Positions 7,448 through 26,081 of a stretch of 34,671 nt of DNA are shown piece by piece. Position 1 is the stretch's first letter, and each line of letters begins with the position of its first letter. The stretch lies in contig FIZJ01000005.1 of assembly GCA_900019385.1 (NCBI GenBank), positions 1-34,671 of the forward strand, in the 5' to 3' direction. This DNA is from an uncultured Clostridia bacterium. GTDB lineage: Bacteria > Bacillota > Limnochordia > Darwinibacteriales > DTU012. Under the pieces are notes generated by a model. The model made no database searches and was not told the origin of the DNA. It saw nothing but the letters and a program-made list of their open reading frames with translations. A program made the position numbers and the translations under genes.

Positions 7448-8263
7448 CTACGGCCGCGTACGGATTCTAACCAAGTTCCTTAAGGTATCGCCCCGCAGGC
7501 CCCGGCGTGTGGATTCCAGGGTAAGCACATCCTGGGGCTGTACATTGCCGAGGTTGACATTAGGCCCGATTTTGGTCAAAAGATAATTGTGCTGGCTGGT
7601 CTGGGGCGCTTCGATTATGATTTTGCCGATGTCCGCGACACCGTTGATCAATACACTCAGGAGCTCTCCCCGGACTTTTCCGTCCTCGTCGTAAATCCCT
7701 ACCCCTTTGCCCGAATCCCGTCCTTCGATGATTACCTTCTCGGCGCCGTTGGCCAGGTCGGCTTCGATTTGTACAATGGCTGCATGGGGGTCGAGATGGA
7801 TCGTCCCGTCTTTCTTGCCGATTTCCGACAGCACTCCAAAACCCTGGTCCCGCGACTGTTTGATGTACCTTTCCCGCAGCTGCGGTGTGAGATCGATCGT
7901 GCCTTCTGACACTTCCACATAAGTGAAACCGAGTTCCGCAGCCCTTTGATAAAACTGCGGCAGCCGGCCTTGATAGGCAGCGATTTCAAACAAGGTGCCT
8001 CCTGGGTAGACCTGGATCCCATACGATTTGATCAGGACGACTTTCTCTCTCAGCATGGCCTCAGGGTAGAGCGCGGCGCTGCCGAAGGCGATTTTGACAA
8101 AGTCGATGTAAGCGGCGGCCATCTCCAGCAAATCCTTGGTGGCTCCGATTCCCAGCCCTTTGTCTATGACCATGGTGACGCCGCTGGCCCGCGGTTTCAG
8201 CGCCCGGTTCTGTTCCGGCATCTCCACCGCCCCGTCCCAGGCTAAAGCTGTACCTACGTTCAT
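7448..8263 (-). CDS. comA: Phosphosulfolactate synthase (ComA/YitD family)
   Basis: Adds sulfite to phosphoenolpyruvate to give (2R)-phospho-3-sulfolactate. In methanogens this starts coenzyme M synthesis; in Bacillus the homologue YitD serves sulfolactate accumulation in spores. The 271-residue TIM-barrel protein shows VIDKGLG, IDFVKIAFGS, VYPGGTLFE, VEVSEGTI, VLSEIGKKD, KVIIEGRDSG and the C-terminal GLRGDTL. The start is ATG at 8263, with GGGGAG 9 nt upstream; a GTG two codons earlier is also possible. The upstream co-directional MFS gene ends about 40 nt away, so the two probably form an operon. No comB phosphatase is in the window. Given the gin gene, a spore role is more likely than coenzyme M; that is inference. 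Confidence 0.88.
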   Translation of the reverse strand: MNVGTALAWDGAVEMPEQNRALKPRASGVTMVIDKGLGIGATKDLLEMAAAYIDFVKIAFGSAALYPEAMLREKVVLIKSYGIQVYPGGTLFEIAAYQGRLPQFYQRAAELGFTYVEVSEGTIDLTPQLRERYIKQSRDQGFGVLSEIGKKDGTIHLDPHAAIVQIEADLANGAEKVIIEGRDSGKGVGIYDEDGKVRGELLSVLINGVADIGKIIIEAPQTSQHNYLLTKIGPNVNLGNVQPQDVLTLESTRRGLRGDTLRNLVRIRTRP

Positions 8264-8301
8264 GCACACCTGCTCCCCTCAGTTCAATTGATACTGCTAT
8301 C

Positions 8302-14600: not shown

Positions 14601-14609
14601 ACAGCCTAG

Positions 14610-14640
14610 AAGACGCTGCCATTTTGGCAAGCGTCTTTTT
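14610..14640 (+). terminator. Terminator of folD
   Basis: AAGACGCT-GCCA pairs with TGGC-A-AGCGTCTT (14610 to 14637, one mismatched position), followed by a T-run. It separates folD from mlaE. Confidence 0.85.
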
Positions 14641-14707: not shown

Positions 14708-15445
14708 ATGATCAAGTTTTTCGAGAATGTAGGCAAGATCGCACGGTTGATCGCCGAGTCCATCTACCACGTTGTCCGCGGGGACGTGGAATTCAAGAAC
14801 ACCACCCAGCAAATGGTGTCGCTCGGAGTCAGGTCCATCCCTCTCGTATTGATCATCAGCGGTTTTACCGGTATGGTGTTTTCACTGCAGGTAGCCCAGG
14901 AACTCAAGAGGTTTGGCGCCGAATCATTCATAGGCCAGCTTTTGGGGCTGGCGATCATCAGAGAACTGGGCGCAGTCCTGACAGGGGTCGTGGTTGCCGG
15001 CCGGGCCGGATCGGCTATCGCCGCGGAACTCGGCGCCATGAAGGTGACGGAACAGATCGATGCCTTGGAAGCCATGGCCACCAGCCCGGTGCAGTACTTG
15101 GTGGCGCCCCGTTTGATCGCTTGTATGATCATGGTGCCTGTCTTGACGGTGTTCGCCCATTTAATCGGCATGACGGGCGGATACGTTGTAGCCACCAGCC
15201 AAGTGGGGATTATCCCCATGGTGTTCTACCAGTCGTCGATTCGCGCAATCCGTTTCTATGATATTTTCTGCAGCTTGGTCAAAGCTGCGGTGTTCGGCAT
15301 GATCGTGGCGGTTGCCGGATGTTATCACGGGCTGAACACAAACAAAGGCGCCCAGGGCGTCGGCACGGCGACCATCGCGGCAGTGGTCAGCAGTATGATC
15401 GGCATTTTCATTTCCAACTACTTCCTCTCGGCTTTAATGTGGTAA
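14708..15445 (+). CDS. mlaE: MlaE family phospholipid ABC transporter permease
   Basis: Inner-membrane permease of the Mla/MCE lipid transport system, 245 residues. An N-terminal amphipathic helix region (residues 1-45) precedes about five membrane segments. The family signature is clear in the middle: FTGMVFSLQVAQEL, IIRELGAVLTGVVVAGR, then AGSAIAAELGAMKVTEQIDALEAM, the coupling region contacting MlaF. The C-terminal segment carries GVGTATIAAVV. The start is ATG at 14708, with GGGGAG a short way upstream. mlaF follows after 16 nt and mlaD overlaps mlaF, so the three form one operon. No MlaB (STAS), MlaC or MlaA gene is present. Confidence 0.95.
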   Translation: MIKFFENVGKIARLIAESIYHVVRGDVEFKNTTQQMVSLGVRSIPLVLIISGFTGMVFSLQVAQELKRFGAESFIGQLLGLAIIRELGAVLTGVVVAGRAGSAIAAELGAMKVTEQIDALEAMATSPVQYLVAPRLIACMIMVPVLTVFAHLIGMTGGYVVATSQVGIIPMVFYQSSIRAIRFYDIFCSLVKAAVFGMIVAVAGCYHGLNTNKGAQGVGTATIAAVVSSMIGIFISNYFLSALMW

Positions 15446-15461
15446 CCTTGGAGGACGCAAC

Positions 15462-16202
15462 ATGTTCGTGCTAAAAGACGTTTGCTTCAGCGCTGACGGC
15501 AATTCAATCCTGAAGAGGATCACCTTGTCAATCAAACATGGTGAGATTTTTGTGATCATGGGTTTGAGCGGAGCGGGAAAGAGCACGATTCTGCGGCTGC
15601 TCAACGGCTTGATCAGGCCGGATTCAGGCCAGATTCTGGTGGACGGCACAGATATCAGTAGAGCCTCGGAAAAAGAACTGCGGGTGATCCGGCGCAAAGT
15701 CGGGATGGTGTTCCAGTCCGCAGCGCTGTTCGATTCCCTCACTGTGGCCGAAAACGTAGGTTTTGCCTGGCGCAAAGACAAGATCAGCAAAAAAGAAATG
15801 GCGGAAAAGGTAAAGGAAGCGTTGGCCTTGGTAGGTTTGGCCGATGTGGAAGATAAAATGCCAGCCGAACTCAGCGGCGGCATGAAAAAGCGGGTGGGCC
15901 TCGCTCGGGCGATTGCCATGCGGCCGCAGGCAATTCTTTATGACGAGCCCACTTCGGGCCTTGATCCCATGACCAGCAACACCATCCTCACATTGATCAA
16001 AGATCTCAACCAGCGCCTGCAGGTGACTTCAGTGGTCGTCACCCATGACCTGGCGGGAGCGTTCAAGATCGCCGACCGGGTGGCACTGCTGCATGAAGGG
16101 GAGATTGTGTTTGTGGGCACGGCGGCCGAAATGGAGCAGGCGACTATACCGTTGGTAAAAAGGTTCCTTACCGGTGGTCAAGCTGAACAGGGGGGATATT
16201 AA
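15462..16202 (+). CDS. mlaF: MlaF family phospholipid ABC transporter ATPase
   Basis: Cytoplasmic ATPase that powers lipid movement through MlaE, 246 residues. Walker A is GLSGAGKST (about residues 31-39), the Q-loop is MVFQSAALFDSLTVAENV, the signature LSGGMKKRVGLARAIA, Walker B AILYDEPTSGLDP, and the switch His is in VVVTHDLAGA. The SAALFDSLTV segment and GGMKKR variant are typical of the MlaF/MCE ATPase subgroup. The start is ATG at 15462, after TTGGAGGACGCAAC. Its stop TAA shares one base with the mlaD ATG (TAATG), which suggests translational coupling. Confidence 0.96.
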   Translation: MFVLKDVCFSADGNSILKRITLSIKHGEIFVIMGLSGAGKSTILRLLNGLIRPDSGQILVDGTDISRASEKELRVIRRKVGMVFQSAALFDSLTVAENVGFAWRKDKISKKEMAEKVKEALALVGLADVEDKMPAELSGGMKKRVGLARAIAMRPQAILYDEPTSGLDPMTSNTILTLIKDLNQRLQVTSVVVTHDLAGAFKIADRVALLHEGEIVFVGTAAEMEQATIPLVKRFLTGGQAEQGGY

Positions 16203-18382
16203 TGCGGCTGTCAGCGGAAGTAAAAGCGGGAGTGACGGTGGTCTTAAGCGTTGTCCTGTTCGCAGCCATGGTCTTTGCTGTCGAGCGGATAGATTTCCGC
16301 CGGGCCGAAGGCCAGGAGATTACTCTCGTATTTGATAATGTCGGCGGGCTGATCGAAGGTGCCCCAGTCCGCTATGCTGGAGTCAACGTGGGCACTGTCG
16401 CCGCAGTGCAGCTTGTGGGCAGTCAGGTATTGGTGAAGGTCCGGTTGAACCGGGAACTGTTAATCCCGGCCGATTCACGCTTCATGATTGCCGCCACCGG
16501 CATCCTCGGCGACAAATATATCGAGATTCAACCCGGCCAAACTCAAGAACCACTAGACCTTGATCAAACGATCGCAGGCATCAGCCCGGTTAGCATAGAC
16601 AGCATGATTCAGGAAGTGGAAACGGGGCTGCGCAATCTCAACGAAGTGATTGTGAAAATAACAGAAGTGGCAGGGTCCGAGGAACTGCAGGAAAACCTGG
16701 CAGCCACTGGCGAGCTGATGAAAGAAACGATGGCCAGCCTGAAATACGCTGTCGATCAGGTGGCTTTGGTCGCGGAAAACGTGCAGGTTGTTGTGGATGA
16801 TCTGGCGGAATTCTCCCGGCAGATGCCGGAACTGGATCTGCAATCCACCTTCGCGGACATTCAAGCTTTCTCCCAGCAGCTGGCGAACCTCAACCTGGCT
16901 GATCCGATCAATGAAATCAACGTCTTTGCGGCGCGCTTGAACGCGCTGCCTTTGGAAGAATTCACCGCAGATGTGCAGCGGGTTGCCCAGCAGCTTGCCG
17001 CCTTGGATCTGGCGGCAATCGAAGCGGATGTGCTGAAGTTCACCTCCATGCTGGCTTCAGTGGAGATTCAGCCTCTGATCGATGAAATCTTGCTCGTCAC
17101 AGAACAGATCAAATCCCTTGAGCTTGACCAGCGCAGCGCGGAAATAGCCGCGTTCACCTCCCAGCTTGGGACACTTCCCCTTGGGGAAATCGCCGCTGAT
17201 CTCCAGACCATATCCCGGAACCTGGCGCTGGTTCCGGTCGAAGACATTGCAGTCAACATCCGGGACGTGACGGAAAAACTCGCCGGACTCCCAATCGACC
17301 AAGTCGTCAGCGATCTTCAGGTGGTGGCATCCGAGCTGAAAAACATCGGCTGGCGGGAGATGGCCGTCGAACTCTCTGAGTTCACCAATGAGCTGGCCAG
17401 TTTCGATTTCGACACGATGCTCACAGGCGTGACCGAGGATCTGAACCGGTTCTCCCACACCTTGGCAAGCCTGCGGTTGGATGAGCTTCTGGCTAGCGTC
17501 GCCGAAGTGGTGGAGAACTTGCGGGAAGTCAGCACGGCGGTTGATCCGAACAGTGTGTCGGCCATCATGGCTGATCTGGAAGGCATTTCAGCCAACGTCC
17601 ATGCCGTAACGGCGGAGATTAACAAGATGGTGGCCCAGATCAACGTGGATGTCCAAAGCTTCAGCCGGGAAACGCTGGTTGCTTTGCAGGACATTCAGAG
17701 CATTGTTACCGGAGTTGACGAGAGTATCGCCAGAATCAACCTGTTTATCGATGATGTGACTGCTGAAGGAGAGACAGCCGCCAACATCCGGGCGACCCTT
17801 GCCAACATCGAGGCGGGGACGCAGGAACTGGCGGAGCTTTTGTCCAAGGTTTCCGACAGTTTTGATTCCGACACCGGTGTTTTTGTGCAGCTGCAGGAAA
17901 CCATGGATACGATCCAGAAGCTCAACGAGGATATCGAAAGAGTAAAAACCATGGGCGAGAAGGTGGACATTCACTCCAAATGGGGAGTGCACGCCACTTT
18001 GACAAAAGAACCAAGCATCAATGCAGGTGTCAGCTTTGAATTCTGGCCGCAGGATACGAATTCTTTCATCCTGGTCGGCATTAAAGATATTCTCGGCGAC
18101 AAAGGCAACCGGCTTCAGCTGCAGTACGGCCGCCAAACAGGATTTTTGCGGCAGCGTTACGGCATAATCGATACCAGCTTGGGTGTCGGCCTGGATGGGC
18201 AGTTCGGCGAAAAATGGGGCTGGACGGCCGAGCTTAAGGAGCTGACTACCGGCTTCCCATGGACCTTGTCGCTGGAAGGGCGTTATACCTGGACGCCCAA
18301 CTGGATGATCAGCCTCATTGCCAACGACATTTTCAGCCGTGAGGAAAGAAGCTTCCGGATCGGAGTGGAACGGAGTTTCTAA
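16202..18382 (+). CDS. mlaD: MlaD with MCE domain, 19-residue helical repeats and C-terminal beta-barrel-like domain
   Basis: A 726-residue lipid-transfer protein, against 183 for E. coli MlaD. Order of parts: membrane anchor (residues 8-27); one MCE domain (about 37-117, with FDNVGGLIEGAPVRYAGVNVG and GILGDKYIEIQPG); a helical linker (about 130-193); thirteen tandem repeats of 19 residues (194-444, one with a 4-residue insertion); a further helical, coiled-coil-like stretch (445-590); and a C-terminal part (about 590-726) of roughly ten amphipathic beta strands with aromatic girdles, ending in RSFRIGVERSF, a typical outer-membrane C-terminal signal with terminal Phe. This matches the fused MlaD known from diderm Firmicutes such as Veillonella, thought to bridge inner and outer membranes. 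The start overlaps the mlaF stop. Confidence 0.93.
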   Translation: MRLSAEVKAGVTVVLSVVLFAAMVFAVERIDFRRAEGQEITLVFDNVGGLIEGAPVRYAGVNVGTVAAVQLVGSQVLVKVRLNRELLIPADSRFMIAATGILGDKYIEIQPGQTQEPLDLDQTIAGISPVSIDSMIQEVETGLRNLNEVIVKITEVAGSEELQENLAATGELMKETMASLKYAVDQVALVAENVQVVVDDLAEFSRQMPELDLQSTFADIQAFSQQLANLNLADPINEINVFAARLNALPLEEFTADVQRVAQQLAALDLAAIEADVLKFTSMLASVEIQPLIDEILLVTEQIKSLELDQRSAEIAAFTSQLGTLPLGEIAADLQTISRNLALVPVEDIAVNIRDVTEKLAGLPIDQVVSDLQVVASELKNIGWREMAVELSEFTNELASFDFDTMLTGVTEDLNRFSHTLASLRLDELLASVAEVVENLREVSTAVDPNSVSAIMADLEGISANVHAVTAEINKMVAQINVDVQSFSRETLVALQDIQSIVTGVDESIARINLFIDDVTAEGETAANIRATLANIEAGTQELAELLSKVSDSFDSDTGVFVQLQETMDTIQKLNEDIERVKTMGEKVDIHSKWGVHATLTKEPSINAGVSFEFWPQDTNSFILVGIKDILGDKGNRLQLQYGRQTGFLRQRYGIIDTSLGVGLDGQFGEKWGWTAELKELTTGFPWTLSLEGRYTWTPNWMISLIANDIFSREERSFRIGVERSF
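16781..17533 (+). repeat. Thirteen tandem 19-residue (57-nt) repeats within MlaD
   Basis: Protein-level repeats at MlaD residues 194-444. Twelve units are exactly 19 residues and one (403-425) is 23. Consensus by position: 1 Leu/Ile/Val, 4 mostly hydrophobic, 7 Asp/Glu, 8 Ile/Leu/Val, 11 Phe/Val/Ile, 15 Leu, 18 Leu/Val, 19 Pro/Asp/Glu/Gly. Examples are LEEFTADVQRVAQQLAALD (251-269) and LGEIAADLQTISRNLALVP (327-345). The DNA has diverged; repetition is visible in protein only. Confidence 0.88.
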
Positions 18383-24995: not shown

Positions 24996-25430
24996 ATGAG
25001 ATGCCTGTGTTTTTTGTGCCTGGCAGGTATACTGGTTTTCGCGGCGGCCTCCGCCGCCGGCGGCCAACGAGAGTTCACCCACTGGATCCACGGCGAGATT
25101 GTCGAGGTTTTTCCCGAACAAAATAAACTCAGGGTGCTGTATGACGGCAAAATGGGCATTTTCAGCCTTGCCCGCGGCGGGGAGATCTACCGCGGCGGCC
25201 GCTTGGTGTCGCTGGTCTCAACCAGGCCGATCACCGAGTCAAGATTTCAAGAAGGCTTGTTTTTCTTTAATGAGCATGGAGAGATCATCTTGATGATTGT
25301 GGATTATTCCATCGCCGAGGTGGAGACAGAAGCTGGCAGTGTTCTTGTTTACTACGACATTTTCGGCAGGGTGAAAGATATGGAACAAATCCCCCCATTT
25401 GAGAGGGATCCTGTGATTTGTAGCGAATAA
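24996..25430 (+). CDS. Small secreted protein of unknown function
   Basis: A 144-residue protein that I do not recognise. An N-terminal signal peptide (residues 1-21, FLCLAGILVFAAASAAGG, likely cleaved after Ala) is followed by a mature part predicted to be mostly beta strands, with repeated segments such as HGEIVEVFPEQNKLRVLYDG and ILMIVDYSIAEVE. The start is ATG at 24996; AAAGGGG at 24981-24987 is the ribosome binding site and lies between the arms of a 6-bp inverted repeat (24965-24970 with 24987-24992), which might influence translation. It lies between pyrG and fba, a slot that holds unrelated genes in Bacillus. Confidence 0.72.
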   Translation: MRCLCFLCLAGILVFAAASAAGGQREFTHWIHGEIVEVFPEQNKLRVLYDGKMGIFSLARGGEIYRGGRLVSLVSTRPITESRFQEGLFFFNEHGEIILMIVDYSIAEVETEAGSVLVYYDIFGRVKDMEQIPPFERDPVICSE

Positions 25431-25484
25431 TAGCTACATACAGATAGGGGGAATTAGAAGTTGCTGTTATCCGGAGAGAGAACT

Positions 25485-26081
25485 ATGGCAATTTACTGCC
25501 CTGCATGTGAACAGGTTCATTTTCACCAATTCTCATTGTTCGAACTGTCTAATTCTCCTCGTGCCTTTCACTGTGCCTGCGGATTCACCCAAGCCCATAT
25601 CGCCAAGCACAACCACCGTTATGAAATAAGCCTGCTGACAGCCGCCGGCGATCGCGTGCGCCTGCTGTTTCCATTCAGAGAGATCTGGTCTGCACCTTTG
25701 CTGACGCTGTATTCCCCTGGAGAAGGAGATATTCTCGGCTTCTTCGGCGATGCCGATCAGGTGGAAGAAGCCGTTGCCGATTTGGACAGCGATTTTTTGG
25801 AACCGGAGGATTTCTTCGCGCCGGAAGTGATGACCAGGATCCTGGCTTATCTGCAAAAGCTTGCCTCGAACCACAAGATCGGCTGTACATGCAGTAATCC
25901 GGCGGTGGGCATCGATGTCTACCCCGACAAGGTCGAACTTGTGTGTTCCCACTGCGGCAGCGCCATTTTGATGAGCGCTGTCAGCGAGGAGGATGTGAAC
26001 AGGCTTTTGAGCTTGTCGGAACTGAGAATGAAACCGGCGTCATATATATATTTGGGAGAATGGCTGAAGCCGATTCGGTGA
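25485..26081 (+). CDS. Cysteine-cluster protein of unknown function
   Basis: A cytosolic 198-residue protein without a family I can name. It carries two four-cysteine sets in mirrored order: CPAC (C5, C8) with CAC (C30, C32) near the N-terminus, and CTC (C134, C136) with CSHC (C154, C157) near the C-terminus, both plausible zinc sites. Between them is an acidic stretch (about residues 90-115, rich in Asp/Glu). The start is taken as ATG at 25485, with GGAG 8 nt upstream; an in-frame TTG at 25461 behind AGGGGG is an equal alternative that would add eight residues. It lies directly before fba (16 nt). Confidence 0.72.
   Translation: MAIYCPACEQVHFHQFSLFELSNSPRAFHCACGFTQAHIAKHNHRYEISLLTAAGDRVRLLFPFREIWSAPLLTLYSPGEGDILGFFGDADQVEEAVADLDSDFLEPEDFFAPEVMTRILAYLQKLASNHKIGCTCSNPAVGIDVYPDKVELVCSHCGSAILMSAVSEEDVNRLLSLSELRMKPASYIYLGEWLKPIR

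Follow-up and report, generated by a model that had tools for sequence, protein, structure and literature searches.

The window analyzed here is a stretch of 34,671 nucleotides, positions 1-34,671 of the forward strand of contig FIZJ01000005.1 (GenBank GCA_900019385.1), from an uncultured Clostridia bacterium (GTDB: Bacillota; Limnochordia; Darwinibacteriales; DTU012); positions given without further label are those of the window. Its plus strand contains the three genes of an MlaEFD transport system: mlaE (14708..15445), which codes for an ATP-binding cassette (ABC) permease of 245 amino acids (Pfam MlaE, E=1.2e-77; NCBIfam TIGR00056, 4.5e-78, over the cut-off); mlaF (15462..16202), for an ABC ATPase of 246 amino acids (Pfam ABC_tran, E=2.9e-38); and mlaD (16202..18382), for a long form of MlaD of 726 amino acids, identified by Pfam MlaD (E=7.3e-22) and by an AlphaFold2 (AF2) model. 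The mlaF product matches the NCBIfam MlaF model with E=1.1e-58, which is under that model's cut-off, and in the relatives the gene is likewise located between mlaE and mlaD. The genome has a single copy of mlaE, and MlaD is its sole MCE protein. Each of the three genes is preceded by a Shine-Dalgarno-like sequence. A sequence-only reading of this DNA had described one overlapping operon without mlaA, mlaB or mlaC. The three genes are indeed present where that reading placed them, while the overlap is confined to mlaF and mlaD, whose stop and start share one base (TAATG), mlaE and mlaF being 16 bp apart. Neither mlaA nor mlaB was found in or beside the operon, no genome-wide search having been made for MlaA or for a stand-alone STAS protein (MlaB); MlaC (PF05494) is additionally absent genome-wide, with zero candidates here and none over the cut-off in the 37 genomes of the host's order (hereafter, the order; the class, Limnochordia, comprises 73 genomes). 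What had been observed at the locus is confirmed, and the system very probably represents a three-component lipid transporter of diderm Limnochordia, in which MlaD bridges both membranes without MlaC or MlaA.

The AF2 model of MlaD, built from 17 sequences, comprises a hydrophobic inner-membrane anchor helix (residues 5-27, 16214..16282), an MCE domain (residues 38-125, 16313..16576), a helical stretch covering residues 132-583, the packing of which has low confidence, and a C-terminal β barrel (residues 588-726, 17963..18379). The MCE domain corresponds to the Pfam MlaD match at residues 37-112, and it resembles the MCE domain of Escherichia coli MlaD (5uw8; Z 15.2, root-mean-square deviation 1.9 Å over 95 residues). 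The last part of the helical stretch, between the repeats described below and the barrel (residues 449-583, 17546..17950), is modeled as helices 449-519, 524-552 and 560-583, with low to middling confidence. The C-terminal domain is confidently predicted as a 10-stranded barrel, with ten strands in residues 588-725, Phe726 as the final residue, and a mean predicted local distance difference test score (pLDDT) of 74-90 per block. Its best matches among solved structures are the outer-membrane barrels Pla (Z 15.6), OpcA (Z 14.1) and OmpT, together with the designed TMB10 (Z 13.1). Comparison of the Limnochordia barrel profile with the Negativicutes MlaD barrel (HHalign 99.5%, E 3.1e-22) indicates that the predicted barrel is homologous to that family, and the C-terminal Phe is invariant in 17/17 aligned proteins. 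Thus, the anatomy proposed by the sequence-only reading, i.e., an anchor, an MCE domain, long helices and a strand-rich C-terminus ending with Phe, is borne out by Pfam and AF2, and the C-terminal fold, for which a membrane β-barrel had been set beforehand as a check, has ten strands, outer-membrane barrels as its best solved matches and Negativicutes homologs. Nitrobindin and DUF3598 barrels are found among the structure matches, and along the strands of the domain polar and non-polar faces alternate in a manner common to membrane and soluble barrels. Both points could speak for a calycin-like domain that stays soluble in the periplasm, where it would bind lipid, instead of entering the outer membrane; this is very improbable, given the outer-membrane proteins and TMB10 at the top of the matches, the invariant Phe, and the homology to Negativicutes barrels, one of which, that of Veillonella parvula MlaD, fractionates with the outer membrane (PMC10665443).

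The helical stretch of MlaD contains a regular array, which the sequence-only reading had not noted. Residues 192-400 (16775..17401) form eleven consecutive units of 19 residues, with consensus L-P/D-L-x-E-I-A-A-D-L-Q-x-F-T-x-E-L-A-x, which were identified by autocorrelation and by a position-specific scoring matrix (PSSM) scan at the exact 19 spacing; the scan also detected two repeat-like units at residues 405-423 (17414..17470), after a 4-residue insertion, and 424-442 (17471..17527). Measured against shuffles, autocorrelation of residues 191-440 gives z = 11.1, 10.0, 10.0 and 9.1 at lags 19, 38, 57 and 76, a periodicity far above chance. Since the PSSM profile was trained on the same proteins that were scanned, the independent evidence consists of the phase-locking and of the autocorrelation. 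The array is unbroken and in phase in 9 of 11 relatives, with one gap in L020 and an irregular arrangement in L026; compared with the MlaD of the window, L027 has one additional unit and L025 two. No array was detected by PSSM in five Negativicutes MlaD proteins. A literature search, which left most subscription journals outside its scope, returned no previous description of an MCE protein with 19-residue repeats; within the literature searched, the repeat-extended MlaD is new.

In agreement with the claim that the host has an outer membrane, its genome encodes Omp85/BamA, OmpH, LptF/G, LptD, LptA and an OmpM-like protein combining SLH and barrel regions. The outer-membrane cluster also includes two barrel-like proteins, an LptC-like protein (under the Pfam cut-off), FabZ, an LpxB-like protein and an LptB-like ATPase; OmpH and LptB were assigned on the basis of their sequence and position and of BLAST comparison with relatives. 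Among the genes that the sequence-only reading had singled out for a search, BamA, LptD and an OmpM-like gene were found, while TamB was not detected in this genome. TamB is present in 4/37 order genomes, all of them Mla-positive (4/13 vs 0/24). At G001:C76 (L096:1-5980), two tandem Omp85 proteins lie next to TamB. Omp85 itself occurs in 36/37 order genomes, and the possibility that the loss of Mla in family f3 reflects loss of the outer membrane was therefore rejected. The cluster also contains a 717-residue membrane protein without a Pfam family, adjoining an ABC ATPase (L071:14478-17371), which is kept there class-wide, LpxC-positive genomes included, with 27-57% identity.

Genes for lipopolysaccharide (LPS) synthesis, on the loss of which the sequence-only reading made no remark, have a different distribution. 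None of the 37 order genomes and none of the 3 genomes of family f12 yielded LpxC or the LpxA C-terminal domain, while among the other 33 class members LpxC is present in 31 and the LpxA domain in 32; the controls of these searches behaved as expected. The cluster of the LpxC-positive genome G054 reads OmpH-LpxD-...LptD-LptC-717aa-ABC-LpxC-nucleotidyltransferase-FabZ-LpxA-methyltransferase-LpxI-LpxB-LptB. The genome of the window and four relatives have a cluster much like it, minus LpxD, LpxC, LpxA and LpxI, the absence of LpxD being deduced from synteny, with no genome-wide search; FabZ is also missing from the cluster of relative G010. Judged by gene content, the order has lost the genes for making LPS while those for Lpt export remain: LptD, the LptC-like protein and LptA (L071:11097-14388) are retained, though the genes for the committed step of lipid A synthesis are missing. 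LpxB is kept in 34/37 order genomes, the LpxB-like protein of L071:17915-19036 (G000 contig 11) being one retained without LpxA and LpxC. All seven LpxC-negative LpxB sequences compared have an altered GEASGD motif and Gly in place of the Asp of the IDFxGFN-type motif, which, on the model of E. coli LpxB, we take to be catalytic; both are intact in 3/3 LpxC-positive sequences. These changes suggest a new glycosyltransferase role. The presence of ordinary LPS in the order, which could be argued from Lpt and LpxB, was rejected on the basis of the LpxA and LpxC searches and of the LpxB motif comparison. LpxK is found in 1/73 class genomes, although 33 have LpxA or LpxC, so lipid A may be unusual across the class.

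MlaD is present in 13/37 order genomes and in 1/3 genomes of family f12, that is, in 14/40 class genomes without LpxA and LpxC vs 0/33 with either (Fisher p = 1.3e-4), a pattern that amounts to few independent events, since the genomes are related. According to the published account, the loss of LPS was accompanied by that of Mla in most of the bacteria concerned, and Mla occurs in a few Limnochordia; the distribution in this class runs against such a link, and no earlier report of Mla in LPS-less Limnochordia was found in the same literature search. The fact that Mla is missing from each of the 33 class genomes in which LpxA or LpxC is retained could indicate that MlaEFD was gained by the LPS-less lineage through horizontal transfer, instead of being kept from a diderm ancestor. 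This is rather unlikely, because the MlaE proteins of the group form a single clade (99/96), in which a second family, from outside the order, is also represented and which lies next to Negativicutes (92/84), and because the chromosomal site is conserved: mlaEFD follows folD in nearly all relatives read, across several families. Tree and site together would fit vertical descent with repeated loss.

Among known systems, MlaEFD of the window is a member, in Limnochordia, of the MlaEFD bridge type (Grasekamp 2023), for which 103 long MlaD proteins bearing a barrel have already been described (PMC10665443); the kinship with the one-piece MlaD of Veillonella, proposed by the sequence-only reading, agrees with the barrel homology. 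The V. parvula system (PMC10665443) shares the limitation to three genes, the overlap of mlaF and mlaD, the lack of MlaC and a related MlaE, and its MlaD has the same succession of anchor, MCE domain, helical region and 10-stranded C-terminal barrel. However, V. parvula MlaD has 419 residues vs 726, the approximately 300 extra residues being mostly the 19-residue repeat array; the V. parvula operon adjoins tolC and tamB, whereas here it lies between folD and htrA and TamB was not detected; and V. parvula has LPS, while the order of the host is devoid of LpxA and LpxC. The interpretation as a transenvelope MlaEFD bridge in a host bearing an outer membrane is supported. MlaE and MlaF would form an inner-membrane ABC transporter, and MlaD, anchored in the same membrane, probably assembles as a hexamer and would carry an MCE ring, followed by a helical tunnel that the repeat array may lengthen; the barrel would be inserted in the outer membrane by the β-barrel assembly machine (BAM), and the lipid would travel along a single protein bridge, without MlaC or MlaA.

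Several points weigh against this interpretation. The whole MlaD model, which is of a single chain, has a predicted template modeling score of 0.28. The tunnel geometry is unproven, given the low confidence of the repeat region, with pLDDT of 40-73 in the full model (mean 54.7 when folded separately). Moreover, the 452 helical residues, as one straight helix at 1.5 Å per residue, would measure about 68 nm, which exceeds an ordinary periplasm. Nitrobindin, a soluble 10-stranded barrel, also matches the C-terminal fold (Z 11.8), more weakly than the outer-membrane barrels, and the authors of the published work considered one such barrel too narrow for a phospholipid. Finally, 24/37 order members, LPS-less as well, are without Mla, which is therefore dispensable there.

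A straight helix of such length implies that either the repeats fold or the periplasm is wide; in V. parvula, the tunnel measures 23.5 nm and the periplasm 24.2 nm (PMC10665443). The array thus poses a concrete structural question, as a straight tunnel built from MlaD would not fit within a periplasm of normal width. The chances seem evenly balanced that the repeats fold back as a compact helical array, such as a solenoid or a collar, which would surround or flank a tunnel of ordinary length and provide a scaffold or a docking surface. Indeed, two AF2 runs, carried out separately, both interrupt the helix at almost every repeat; the second residue of the unit is usually Pro, Asp or Gly, as is common where helices begin; and if residues 192-442 are set aside, some 200 helical residues are left, corresponding to about 30 nm, near the length of the V. 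parvula tunnel. Yet the confidence of the model is low, and the change by a single unit in L027 suits a linear array equally well. Folding back concerns the geometry only and is compatible with the other elements of the bridge.

As for function, the missing steps of LPS synthesis make the maintenance of LPS asymmetry, the role usually ascribed to Mla, an unlikely one for MlaEFD; its task is probably to keep phospholipids balanced in general, or to clear phospholipid from an outer leaflet made of another lipid exported by Lpt. The cargo would be phospholipid, as suggested by V. parvula genetics, where mlaEFD mutants show envelope phenotypes (PMC10665443), and by the same analogy the direction of transport would be retrograde. 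An anterograde MlaEFD, as a source of phospholipid for assembling an outer membrane free of LPS, would accord with the lack of LpxA and LpxC in the order, with the failure to detect TamB in this genome and with the restriction of MlaD, within the class, to genomes without LpxA and LpxC. It is nevertheless improbable, as Mla is missing from many relatives that lack LPS, the data from V. parvula favor the retrograde direction (PMC10665443), and a diverged TamB or other AsmA-like proteins could be present. We tentatively propose, with somewhat less than even confidence, that an MCE bridge operates in an LPS-free outer membrane, that a modular 19-residue repeat sets the length of its tunnel, and that the outer leaflet consists of a different lipid exported by Lpt. 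If this were true, Mla bridges would have a role in phospholipid balance that does not depend on LPS asymmetry. In Limnochordia, all lineages in which Mla is seen are devoid of LpxA and LpxC, yet they keep the Lpt export machine; hence, the order represents a natural test of the roles of Mla and Lpt without LPS.

Among other MCE systems, MlaFEDB-MlaC-MlaA of E. coli shares the MlaE permease, the MlaF ATPase and the anchor and MCE fold of MlaD, but its MlaD is short (183 amino acids) and the system includes the MlaC shuttle, the MlaA lipoprotein and MlaB, none of which is encoded in the operon described here. E. coli PqiB and LetB also bridge the envelope with MCE rings and are matched by the MCE domain of MlaD; they contain 3 and 7 stacked MCE domains, respectively, whereas MlaD of the window has one MCE domain followed by repeats and barrel. 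We know of no 19-residue repeats in the mycobacterial Mce1 complex (8fed, 8fef), which gave the top Foldseek matches and shares an MCE domain followed by long tunnel-building helices. Mce1 is instead a heterohexamer whose individual chains do not each contain a complete barrel (PMC10665443), and it belongs to the mycobacterial envelope.

Upstream of the operon, a hairpin followed by T residues (14609-14640), between folD and mlaE, probably terminates folD transcription, and mlaE is thus likely to be transcribed from a start of its own. In the relatives, folD-mlaEFD is mostly followed by htrA and rlmH; in L022, L023 and L026, a further set of ABC transporter genes separates mlaD from rlmH. Elsewhere in the window, the minus strand at 7448-8269 contains a gene for a ComA-type (2R)-phospho-3-sulfolactate synthase, a family of the coenzyme M pathway, here in a bacterium. 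Between pyrG and fructose-bisphosphate aldolase, two adjacent open reading frames (24996-26081; 144 and 206 amino acids) have no convincing family match, and similarly sized counterparts occupy the same position in relatives.

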